This document shows positions 41,981-62,750 of a stretch of DNA of 64,000 nt, piece by piece. A program made the position numbers and the translations under genes. Within the stretch, counting starts at the first letter, position 1, and every line of letters begins with the position of its first letter. The DNA lies in IMG/VR virus record IMGVR_UViG_3300024354_000017, positions 19,280 through 83,279 of that record; one strand, written 5' to 3'. The notes under the pieces were generated by a model. The model was not told where the DNA came from and searched no databases. It saw only the letters and a list, made by a program, of their open reading frames with translations. This stretch comes from a virus.

Positions 41981-42058
<78 letters not shown>

Positions 42059-42062
42059 TAAC

Positions 42063-42139
42063 TGGCCACGCATAAGGGATTCGAACCCCTGACCCACAGC
42101 TTAGAAGGCTGTTGCTCTATCCAACTGAGCTAATGCGTG
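42063..42139 (-). tRNA. tRNA-Arg(TCT)
   Basis: 77 nt with encoded CCA. Acceptor CACGCAT/ATGCGTG, D-stem GCTC/GAGC, anticodon loop CTTCTAA, T-arm AGGGG-TTCGAAT-CCCTT (one G-T-type pair). Reads AGA, a codon abundant in this phage's AT-rich genes. Confidence 0.92.
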
Positions 42140-42146
42140 ATTTAAA

Positions 42147-42231
42147 TGGTGCGACTGACCAGAATCGAACTGGTATGCATTGCTGCGAGGGATTTTAAGT
42201 CCCTTGTGTCTACCTATTTCACCACAGTCGC
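42147..42231 (-). tRNA. tRNA-Leu(TAA)
   Basis: 85 nt with encoded CCA. Acceptor GCGACTG/CAGTCGC, anticodon loop CTTAAAA, long variable arm typical of Leu, T-arm ACCAG-TTCGATT-CTGGT. Reads TTA/TTG. Confidence 0.92.
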
Positions 42232-58298: not shown

Positions 58299-59416
58299 AA
58301 CTAGATCAAATCGTATTAGAAGCCAACATTGCGGCAAAATTAAAAGATCCAAAGACTGTTAAGATGCTTGGAATTGCAATGCGTCACGACAGCACATTAC
58401 CAAAAGATAAGGTTGCTAAGTTAGGTCCTAAACCAGACGATCAAGCAATTTTACAACTATGGAGTGAACTATTAGATACATCACTTCGTTCAACAGACTA
58501 CGGCGACCTTTCACAAGACGGTAAGTTTGACGATTGGTTGACACGTCTTTATATGAACGGTGTAGTAGACTATGAGGATATCAACGGTGAAGGTGGGGAT
58601 GCCCTAGGTGCTTGGAAAGCTCTAAGTATACGCGGTAAGCTCAAAGAGCCGCATCAGGATTTTAATCGTTTTAAAAATCTACGCCAGATTCAAGCAATTG
58701 TACAGACTAGAGAATACCGAGACGAATTACGTAAGATTAAAGATGCTGAAGTTATTGAGAAACATAAGCGTGAAAAGAAAGAATCTATATTGATCAACAA
58801 TGATCGTTTCCTAGTAACATTACCTTACAACTACGGTGCTTGTTATACATTCAATAACTCCGAAGGTTATCAGGCAAGTTTCTGTACAGGATCTAGTTCA
58901 GGTCTACGTTGGTTTGAACGCTATGCTCCAGAAGGTCCTATCGTTAGTATTGTTGATAAACAAAATCAAGACGATGTAAACGGTAAGTGGCAGATGCACG
59001 CCCCAACAGGACAGATGAACAACGGTAATCAATCGTTGAGTTATAGCCGTGGAGATGAAAAGTTTGCTGAACTATTCCCCGGATTGCTTAAAGAAATTAT
59101 CGCTGCTATGAAATCTAAAGCAGAAGAAATCAAGCAGAATTCTAAAGATATAACTCCAGACGGTTACGACATTGATAAAGCAATTGCAGACATTAAATCT
59201 AGATTGCCATATTCATATGCATCTGAACCAGAGAAGAAAGAAGATGAGCCAGCTGAAGAAGGTCCCGGAATGTTTATAGTTACACTTCTTCAAAATGGAC
59301 GAACAGCTCGTATTGAAGCAGAAAGCGAAGAAGATGCTATTCGTAGAGTTATTGAAAGACATCCAAGTATTCATAGAGAACAACTTAGAGTCGAAAGAGA
59401 TCGCGAAGGCAATTAA
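58295..59416 (+). CDS. Large virion-associated protein of unknown function
   Basis: 373 residues. Leader MKLDQIVLEANIA again has an L-x-E-A end. Middle: ILINNDRFLVTLPYNYGACYTF, WFERYAPEGPIVSIVDKQNQ and GKWQMHAPTGQM. These read like a beta-rich binding domain of a type shared with other large phages and some ADP-ribosyltransferase-associated proteins, but I cannot name it. Acidic C-terminus followed by a compact alpha/beta tail. Confidence 0.65.
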   Translation: MKLDQIVLEANIAAKLKDPKTVKMLGIAMRHDSTLPKDKVAKLGPKPDDQAILQLWSELLDTSLRSTDYGDLSQDGKFDDWLTRLYMNGVVDYEDINGEGGDALGAWKALSIRGKLKEPHQDFNRFKNLRQIQAIVQTREYRDELRKIKDAEVIEKHKREKKESILINNDRFLVTLPYNYGACYTFNNSEGYQASFCTGSSSGLRWFERYAPEGPIVSIVDKQNQDDVNGKWQMHAPTGQMNNGNQSLSYSRGDEKFAELFPGLLKEIIAAMKSKAEEIKQNSKDITPDGYDIDKAIADIKSRLPYSYASEPEKKEDEPAEEGPGMFIVTLLQNGRTARIEAESEEDAIRRVIERHPSIHREQLRVERDREGN

Positions 59417-59530
59417 AAACACCCTACCTTAGGACGTTATCGTTACTTTGGGTGGCCCGGCTGCTGGGCAGGGGATTATGGGAGTCGTGCCCCGGAATGG
59501 TCCCCTAAGTGAGCATTTACATTTTGTCCA
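59417..59530 (+). ncRNA. Structured leader RNA, possible riboswitch-like pseudoknot
   Basis: GC-rich island in AT-rich DNA between two genes. CACCC (59420-59424) can pair with GGGTG (59450-59454). CTTAGG (59428-59433) in its loop can pair with CCTAAG (59504-59509), forming a pseudoknot. GCCC/GGGC (59455-59458/59466-59469) and GGGG/CCCC (59471-59474/59490-59493) form two hairpins. GGGCA/TGCCC (59466-59470/59488-59492) is a mutually exclusive alternative. No named family recognised. Confidence 0.55.
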
Positions 59531-60154
59531 ATGAAAATTGCTTTATTCATACATCAACCTGTTTGCGCAGTTGATTCAGCTAATGGAATTATAAAAGCAT
59601 TATCCCCCCAACATTCTTTTAAATTATTCTCCAAAGACGAAGTAGAAACCACTTTCTTTGATGATGTGGACTGTGTATGCTTTCCAGGAGGCTTTGGAGA
59701 TGCAGACAGATTTGATACATTAGTAAAATGGAATTATGATGCTGTAAAACACTTCGTTAGCAATGGCGGAAAGTATTTAGGAATATGTATGGGAGCGTAT
59801 TGGGCCGGCCCAGACTATTTTGATTTATTAGATAACGTTGAGGTTACACAATATATCAAACGTCCCAATACCTGCACTAGAAGACCCCACCCTAAAGCAA
59901 TGCCAGTGAAGTGGCTAGACAATTTTGAAAGGATGTATTTCTATGACGGTTGTGCATTTGTTGGGAATAATATGGACGTTGTGGCTAGCTATAGCAATAG
60001 TGATCCTATGGCGATTGTGCAAAAGAATATCGGACTAATAGGTTGCCATCCAGAAAGCGAACAGTGGTGGTATGATAAAAAATACCTTGAGCCGCATTGG
60101 CATCAAGGTACTCATTATCAGTTACTGTTAGATTTTGTTAACCGTTTACGATAA
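59531..60154 (+). CDS. Class I glutamine amidotransferase-like protein
   Basis: 207 residues. VCFPGGFGDAD, then GICMGAYWAG (nucleophile elbow cysteine) and GCHPESEQW (His-Glu of the triad) follow the class I GATase layout, closest to BPL_N-type stand-alone domains. No synthase partner is adjacent. Preceded by the structured RNA. The glutaminase could feed ammonia to the phage sugar or nucleotide enzymes; speculative. Confidence 0.8.
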   Translation: MKIALFIHQPVCAVDSANGIIKALSPQHSFKLFSKDEVETTFFDDVDCVCFPGGFGDADRFDTLVKWNYDAVKHFVSNGGKYLGICMGAYWAGPDYFDLLDNVEVTQYIKRPNTCTRRPHPKAMPVKWLDNFERMYFYDGCAFVGNNMDVVASYSNSDPMAIVQKNIGLIGCHPESEQWWYDKKYLEPHWHQGTHYQLLLDFVNRLR

Positions 60155-60829: not shown

Positions 60830-62038
60830 ATGAAGAAGCGCAACTACACACAAGACACAGTCCGCAAGTTACAAGGCTCATTACAAATTGAGCATACTTT
60901 AGCCAAACGTGGTGCAACCAAACTACGTGAGTTACTAGCAACAGAACCATACGTTAACACGCTAGGAGCGTACAGCGGCCAACAAGCCGTACAACACGCC
61001 AAAGCAGGACTCAAAGCAATTTATCTATCAGGCTGGCAAGTGGCCGCAGCCGCAAATACAGCAGGACAAACATATCCTGATCAAAGTTTATATCCAGTAA
61101 ATTCAGTGCCCACAATCGTTAAGCAAATCAATAATGCGTTCCGTCGTGCCGATCAAATCGAACACAGTGAAGGCAATTTAACAACAGATTATTTCTTGCC
61201 AATTGTAGCTGACGCAGAAGCAGGTTTTGGTGGCGCATTAAACGCATATGAACTTATGATGGCTATGATCGAAGCAGGCGCCGCAGGCGTACACTTTGAA
61301 GATCAACTATCTAGCGAAAAGAAATGTGGACACTTAGGCGGTAAGGTTTTAATTCCCACTAGCCAAGCTATTCGTAACCTACAGGCCGCACGTCTTGCTA
61401 GCGATGTAGCAGGAGTAGAAACAGTTATTATGGCACGTACCGACGCAGAGTCTGCTACACTTATTACCAGCAATCACGATCCATTGGACAAGGACTTTAT
61501 TATTGATGAACGCACTGACGAAGGCTTTTACAAATTTAAAAACGGGCTTGATGCTTGTATTAGCAGAGGTCTTGCTTATGCCCCTTACGCTGATCTCCTT
61601 TGGTTCGAAACTAGCACACCTGATATCGCACAGGCTAGAAAGTTTGCTGAAGCGATCCGTGCCCAGTATCCTGATCAAATGCTTGCTTATAATTGCAGTC
61701 CTAGTTTTAATTGGCAAAAGTTTTTAAGCATTGAAGAATGTGAAACATTCCAACGTGAATTAGGTGCGTTAGGCTATAAGTTTCAGTTCATTACACTAGC
61801 AGGATTCCATTCAGTTAACCTTGCTACATTTGAATTAGCAGAAGCCTATAAACAACGTGGTATGGCTGGGTATTCAGAAATGCAACAGCGTGAGTTTGAA
61901 GCACAGGCTCGTGGCTTTACAACAGTTAAACATCAACGTGAAGTTGGCGTTGGTTACTTTGATTTGATTAGTGAAGCAGTTGGTGCTACATCAACAGTTG
62001 CTAATAAGTCCAGCACAGAGGCAGATCAGTTCCACTAA
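60830..62038 (+). CDS. aceA: Isocitrate lyase
   Basis: 402 residues, close to bacterial AceA (about 430). Cleaves isocitrate to glyoxylate and succinate, the entry to the glyoxylate shunt. Catalytic signature [13 protein letters not shown] at residues 164-176 (Cys166). [25 protein letters not shown] and ARTDAES supply the metal- and substrate-binding residues. C-terminus STEADQFH is also typical. Strong ribosome site, late-type promoter. No malate synthase is in the window. Confidence 0.95.
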
Positions 62039-62045: not shown

Positions 62046-62750
62046 ATGGAAATTATTTTAGCAACGTTAGTGATGACGCACATCACAATAGTGTGCGTCA
62101 CACTATACCTGCATCGTGGACAGGCTCATAGAGGCATAACCTTTAATTTTATATTTGAACATCTAATACGTTTTTGGTTATGGCTTACTACTGGTATGGT
62201 CACAAAACAATGGGTGGCGATACATCGTAAGCATCACAGATTTAGTGATGAACAAGGCGACCCGCATAGTCCGCACGTATACGGTATTTGGCGTGTGTTG
62301 TTTAAAGGTGCTGTATTATATCATACTGCAAGTAAAGATTCTGAAATGATTCAACAATACGGAGTTGGTACTCCGGATGATTGGATCGAACGTAATTTGT
62401 ATACCCCACACAGTCGCTGGGGGATTCTCTTAATGTTGGTCATAGACCTTGTTCTTTTTGGACCTGTAGGACTAGTAGTTTGGGGTATACAAATGCTTTG
62501 GATTCCTTTCTGGGCAGCAGGAGTTATCAACGGAGTAGGACATTGGTATGGATATAAAAACGGAATTAGCAATGATCGTAGTCGCAATATTAGTCCTTGG
62601 GGTATTATCATTGGTGGGGAAGAGCTTCATAACAATCATCACCTTAGCCCAGCAAGTCCTAAACTAAGCCGTCGATGGTTTGAGTTTGACATTGGTTGGA
62701 TGTGGTTAAGTTTGTTTAGAGTTTTAAGGATAGCTGAATTAAGGAAGTAA
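62046..62750 (+). CDS. Acyl-CoA/acyl-lipid desaturase (type 1 fatty acid desaturase)
   Basis: 234 residues. Integral membrane di-iron enzyme introducing a double bond into fatty acyl chains. Three histidine boxes: HRGQAH (residues 23-28), HRKHH (about 60-64) and HNNHH (about 198-202). Four hydrophobic segments, including LLMLVIDLVLFGPVGLVVW. Somewhat short for the family but all ligands are present. Confidence 0.9.
   Translation: MEIILATLVMTHITIVCVTLYLHRGQAHRGITFNFIFEHLIRFWLWLTTGMVTKQWVAIHRKHHRFSDEQGDPHSPHVYGIWRVLFKGAVLYHTASKDSEMIQQYGVGTPDDWIERNLYTPHSRWGILLMLVIDLVLFGPVGLVVWGIQMLWIPFWAAGVINGVGHWYGYKNGISNDRSRNISPWGIIIGGEELHNNHHLSPASPKLSRRWFEFDIGWMWLSLFRVLRIAELRK

Follow-up and report, generated by a model that had tools for sequence, protein, structure and literature searches.

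An uncatalogued structured RNA family of uncultivated large phages with loops complementary to conserved ribosomal RNA sites

Segment 59417–59514 (+) of the window, the 64,000-nucleotide stretch of viral DNA analysed here, is a member of a large structured RNA family that is present as a single copy in many uncultured large phages. The stems P1, P2 and P3 of this RNA covary, and its loops show more antisense matching to rRNA than expected by chance, and do so on one strand alone. On balance we lean towards a trans-acting phage RNA that, in infected cells, would base-pair with rRNA or with ribosomal subunits; in this reading the complementarity is observed, and binding and effect are what it suggests.

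The RNA family and its genomic context

The window comes from an 83-kb IMG/VR virus record that carries T4-like genes for replication and for the virion (UvsW-type helicase, primase, DnaB-type helicase and a virion protein). The features of the locus are collected in Table 1. A GC-rich non-coding segment, as described in the first-pass annotation, is present between the stop codon at 59414–59416 and the ORF start at 59531; of the extent given there (59417–59530) the start is retained, and the structure ends at 59514. The upstream ORF has no Pfam or PHROG family match. Further along the window, a phage-encoded isocitrate lyase gene (60830–62038, +, Pfam ICL E 5e-101) is adjoined by a fatty-acid desaturase gene (62046–62750), which is an unusual metabolic pair for a T4-like phage. 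In the region 25001–49000 of the window, the GC content rises from ~0.36 to 0.45–0.50, the GC skew changes and the long ORFs run predominantly on the − strand; genes for three tRNAs (Met, Arg and Leu) are located at 41981–42231.

Table 1. Coordinates of the RNA, its parts and the flanking genes in the window
Feature	Position	Strand	Remarks
Upstream ORF, 373 aa	58295..59416	+	Stop codon 59414–59416, ncRNA directly after
ncRNA, three stem-loop domains and tail	59417..59514	+	Model R1 match 1–98, full-length, 91.5 bits, E 7e-19
P1 5′ strand CACCC	59420..59424	+	Pairs with 59450–59454
L1 motif CTACCTTAGGAC	59424..59435	+	All 12 nt complementary to E. coli 23S rRNA 1922–1933 (H69 3′ side and onward strand)
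Small inner hairpin and GTTAC	59434..59446	+	Antisense of H69 5′ side; in R1 alignment to antisense 23S
P1 3′ strand GGGTG	59450..59454	+	Pairs with 59420–59424
P2 hairpin GCCC-GGCTGCT-GGGC	59455..59469	+	Outer two pairs covary GC/CG/AU
L2 motif CGGCTGCTGG	59458..59467	+	Exact 10-nt complement of 16S rRNA 518–527 (530 loop)
P3a 5′ strand AGGGGATTAT	59470..59479	+	Pairs with 59497–59506
P3b hairpin GGG-AGTCGTG-CCC, loop type A	59480..59492	+	Stem covaries; loop invariant within type A
P3a 3′ strand ATGGTCCCCT	59497..59506	+	Includes 3′ arm of earlier-proposed pseudoknot
Invariant tail AAGTGAGC	59507..59514	+	7 nt complementary to 23S 1099–1105, not significant alone
Class-I glutamine amidotransferase (GATase)-like ORF	59531..60154	+	Pfam GATase E 2e-5, BPL_N E 7e-10

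A first pattern search of IMG/VR on conserved words returned more than 100 stretches, and three broader pattern searches of the same database raised the set to at least 257 distinct copies, all of them from uncultivated viruses. Most of the collection patterns demanded the words of loop 1 and loop 2, so that conservation there is partly due to selection; the exception was one scan keyed solely on loop 3B and the tail, whose matches kept a loop-1 word, altered in some, and a loop-2 word, bar a few that were off-target or truncated. Model R1 was built from phage sequences only, without any rRNA, and its E-values are rough. Exactly one R1 copy per record was found in 36/36 carrying records, which range from 52 to 365 kb, the match in one of them (G018) being marginal. 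This match (L218, 1501–1589, −) scores 21 bits, carries CACCTTAGGGACCGTTGTCGTCACGG and differs in the second hairpin, and may represent a remoter branch of the family. The idea of a repeated 3′-end element or mobile cassette was dropped because every carrying record has one copy.

The covariance-model search placed the RNA in no known family. At the gathering score of Rfam 15, the window and four member loci match nothing except tRNAs, and under permissive settings the best hit (E 0.51) is a piece of an unrelated lncRNA outside the element. Blastn with several queries against cultured phages (INPHARED) gave short chance matches only, and two exact patterns did not find the RNA in GTDB genomes. 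By the searches made, the family is absent from these three collections.

In most loci the RNA starts 0–6 nt past the stop codon of the upstream same-strand gene. The upstream genes vary and lie on the + strand in 84/100 loci, the downstream gene may be on either strand, and the proteins on both sides belong to tens of unrelated clusters each way. A small protein family of ~87 aa is encoded just downstream of the RNA in ~24 loci (L083, L105, L186 and others), a frequency equal to that of GATase. In the 364-kb record G015, the RNA is situated ~86 kb from the GATase locus that led to the record. Given the varied flanks, the single copy and this distance, the pattern is that of a free-standing RNA gene rather than of a cis-regulator of one gene. 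Thus the RNA probably stands on its own as an ncRNA generated from the 3′ ends of mRNAs; its position suggests that it is probably cut or stopped from the transcript of the upstream ORF.

The GATase-like ORF, which has many viral relatives, is a neighbour of the RNA and not its defining partner. The first-pass annotation had taken the RNA for a leader of this gene, perhaps a riboswitch sensing nitrogen or glutamine, or a ribozyme. The RNA does lie by a GATase gene in the window and in 20 other close loci, but same-strand RNA is present in only 21/80 of the closest GATase loci and most GATase relatives are without it; in records G016 and G017, for example, the GATase gene has another upstream sequence and the RNA is absent by R1. 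Most copies of the RNA precede other or convergent genes, many of them unrelated, with an opposite-strand downstream gene in 15/100 loci, and in many members the stretch separating the RNA from the next gene contains promoter-like sequences. With no constant position before one regulated gene type and no Rfam match either, it is in our view extremely improbable that the RNA controls the GATase gene as a riboswitch or ribozyme leader.

The same context bears on a cis-acting 3′-end element, that is, a terminator, RNase stop or processing site that would protect the upstream mRNA and insulate it from the next promoter. Such an element would fit the start 0–6 nt past stop codons, as well as the promoter-like sequences, T4-late type included, that are enriched just downstream of the RNA: within 20 nt, the late-promoter-like RATAAATA occurs in 16/189 members and TTGAC[AT] in 19/189. 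TTTTT is also enriched there, in a minority of members. But a general signal would recur, whereas this one has a single copy in genomes of up to 365 kb, behind many different genes, and would have no need of invariant loops. We consider it unlikely. An intrinsic terminator in particular was rejected, since a tail of 8–10 nt separates P3 from the T-rich stretch, TTTTT is confined to a minority and each record has one copy.

Fold and strand of the RNA

P1 encloses CTTAGGA, a small hairpin and GTTAC; P2 carries the loop GGCTGCT; and P3 consists of two parts. Loop 3 is found as type A (AGTCGTG(C), the one in the window), type B (ATTCGCTAC), which is the commonest, and less often as type C (CCGGGAAT) or type D (..ACGCCA..). 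P3 is followed by the tail. In reduced forms, P1 bears just a 9-nt loop, CTTAGGACC.

The proposal of a structured RNA was borne out by conservation with compensatory changes in the collected relatives, and the CACCC/GGGTG stem (now P1) exists together with the two hairpins, at 59455–59469 and 59470–59506. Across the nine pairs of P2, P3a and P3b, a MAFFT alignment of 99 copies has 96.7% paired cells and 214 double changes, with a covariation score of 0.664 versus 0.218 in shuffles (0/500 reach 0.664) and at most 0.115 for slid structures. P3a shows 95.3% paired cells and double changes in 3/3 tested pairs; in P2, the inner CC/GG and the loop are invariant in A1. The strands of P1 differ between members with the pairing kept, true pairs being 5.28 long versus 4.40 (sd 0.06) when strands are re-dealt between copies. 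Single-sequence folding gives a z of −0.74 and is uninformative for this RNA.

Two other pairings of the first-pass annotation fell away. CTTAGG/CCTAAG (59428–59433 with 59504–59509) is treated as a chance pairing: among 99 relatives it has no double-sided change, the outermost pair is broken in 81/99, the 5′ arm does not vary and the 3′ arm is taken up by the well-covarying P3a stem. The competing GGGCA/TGCCC pairing would disrupt P2 and P3b, both of which are supported by covariation. HDV-like and other ribozyme folds, suggested by the P1/pseudoknot layout, were dropped once the pseudoknot failed, and no result in this analysis points to a ribozyme.

The helices contain 145 G-U versus 29 A-C cells (127 versus 8 in P3a), the P1 helices in these counts having been picked by best fit so that the P1 share leans to pairing, and the + strand folds more stably than the − strand (Wilcoxon p 3e-11). 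This asymmetry and the more stable folding identify the + strand as the RNA. It might be argued that the − strand is the functional one, acting as an rRNA-like decoy that offers the sequences of H69 and the 530 loop to enzymes or toxins that target rRNA, since hairpin loops of the reverse complement indeed carry sense rRNA words. However, with the G-U/A-C asymmetry and the folding energy both in favour of the + strand, and the upstream gene lying on it in 84/100 loci, this seems very unlikely.

Some distant members carry an insert (CCTAAGGCG or AATGGCGTC) that could pair with the loops of the same RNA. In L220, L222, L237, L261, L271, L291 and L320, an insert between P1 and P2 (CCTAAGGCGTC or AATGGCGTCA) complements the RNA's own loop 1 or loop 3D, and it is possible that it would serve as a switch hiding the antisense loops.

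Complementarity of the loops to ribosomal RNA

The E. coli rrnB operon was used as the rRNA reference. ACCTTAGGACCG is the complement of 23S 1920–1931, CGGCTGCTGG that of 16S 518–527, TTCGCTACC (L3 type B) that of 23S 1929–1937 and ACGCCATT that of 23S 1969–1976. In the established structure of the ribosome, the predicted target sites lie in H69 with the strand after it, which forms intersubunit bridge B2a and faces the decoding centre, and in the 530 loop within the decoding centre. These sites are among the least variable rRNA sequences; they are folded in finished ribosomes, which speaks against pairing.

Among the 257 gathered copies, the P1 domain finds its best antisense site at 23S 1905–1935 in 244, with a mean match of 12.05 nt versus 8.3 nt in sense and 7.9 nt in shuffled comparisons; L2 finds its best site at 16S 510–527 in 254, over 10–11 nt; and the P3 domain does so in the 23S 1920s in 122. 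Altered loop-1 words (e.g. CCCTAGGACCGTTA) mostly keep a long 23S complement. Six motifs summed give 53 for antisense and 39 for sense rRNA, against 40.9 ± 2.1 for dinucleotide-shuffled rRNA (z 5.8, an optimistic value since the motif boundaries were set after the matches had been seen), and 0/715 phage windows reach 53; the whole-family and covariance-model tests are less affected by this choice. For L1, L2 and L3B, the same sites also come out on top when ranked by duplex energy. Run on rrnB, R1 hits antisense 23S 1878–1940 with 20.1 bits (E 7e-4) over ~27 nt, in an alignment of CUACCUUAGGAaCGuUAuuuGUUAC with antisense 23S CUACCUUAGGACCGUUAUA-GUUAC that spans the whole P1 domain. L3 of type A, as in the window, and of type C has rRNA complementarity at background only, and the 7 nt by which the tail complements the 23S GTPase centre are not above chance.

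The poor match of L3 types A and C, together with the swapping of three loop types, would also suit an RNA that binds protein, for instance a scaffold or sponge for an RNA-binding protein of the host, be it ribosomal, rRNA-processing or other. The likeness to antisense rRNA would then be a matter of history or structure and play no part in pairing; covarying stems with invariant loops mark protein sites as well. What such an RNA does not predict is antisense matches of 10–15 nt to two universal rRNA sites in ~95% of the gathered members, and we give it a minor though real chance. Loop 1 resembles the I-CeuI site, and a homing-endonuclease site was considered and rejected, because it leaves the RNA covariation, the 530-loop match and the split sites unexplained.

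Possible action on host ribosomes and relation to known systems

In the trans-acting reading that we favour, an ncRNA of ~75–105 nt, single-copy and on the + strand, would be formed at the 3′ end of whichever late-region gene precedes it, and its three stem-loops would display short antisense loops. Loop 1 with the inner hairpin would address 23S ~1906–1933 (H69 and the following strand), loop 2 the 16S 530 loop (518–527), and the commonest loop 3 would address 23S 1929–1937. Because the sites are folded in finished ribosomes, nascent rRNA, assembly intermediates and free subunits are the likeliest partners, and the loops would most likely kiss nascent or pre-assembly rRNA or free subunits, where the sites are least buried. 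The outcome may be that ribosome assembly or subunit joining is blocked or re-programmed in infection. Since the target sites are so invariant, an RNA antisense to them would be effective whatever the bacterial host. From the sequences we infer transcription, 3′-end formation and physical binding, as well as the state of the ribosome bound and the benefit to the phage. The complementarity could also be partly inherited, by descent from antisense rDNA, or be mimicry for a protein rather than serve pairing.

A more specific version is put forward tentatively, as a serious possibility: large T4-like phages may encode a dedicated anti-ribosome RNA whose three loops would together engage the H69–H71 region of 23S rRNA and the 530 loop of 16S rRNA, covering both halves of the decoding centre as well as bridge B2a, and so halt the assembly of new host ribosomes or lock or re-program the subunits. 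If confirmed, this would add an RNA arm to the takeover of ribosomes by phages, for which only proteins have so far been described, and would identify two universally conserved rRNA sites as natural targets of antisense. The mechanism aside, the family is an uncatalogued one, found across uncultivated large phages of many kinds and kept at one copy per genome.

The box C/D and H/ACA guide RNAs of archaea and eukaryotes are small stable RNAs with short antisense stretches to conserved rRNA sites. The phage RNA resembles them in this mode of recognition; the guides, however, need their boxes and partner proteins, whereas the motifs of the phage RNA are other ones. To our knowledge, no bacterial or phage guide RNA of this kind has been described. 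Ribosome-associated rancRNAs are likewise small ncRNAs, for which the proposed target is the ribosome and not an mRNA, but those reviewed are cellular; the passages of their review covered here do not describe antisense pairing of loops with rRNA, and the word "phage" is absent from the review as a whole (PMC8938821). The protein phiKZ014 of phage phiKZ binds 5S rRNA of the 50S subunit (PMC10914614), so that there, too, a phage product targets host ribosomes via rRNA; the analogy is one of strategy only. In a review of phage sRNAs, rRNA goes unmentioned, and no phage RNA targeting rRNA by base pairing was found in the part of the open-access literature that was searched.

The stable RNAs C and D of T4 (rnaC, rnaD) are also small stable RNAs of a T4-like phage, but they sit in a tRNA cluster, their rRNA antisense matches are at background (8–9 nt) and their locus (L443) has no R1 match, so homology was not found. 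RNA D (1554–1672 of this locus) has a hairpin CCGG-GTCGCTA-CCGG in which TCGCTACC matches loop 3B and complements 23S 1929–1936; beyond this word, it has no other similarity to the family. A homologue of ribosomal protein bS21 is encoded in 9/22 records examined (G002, G003, G006, G007, G008, G010, G015, G017 and G019). With this frequency it was rejected as a co-occurring partner of the RNA; its presence, not strictly tied to the RNA, is consistent with ribosome takeover by these phages.
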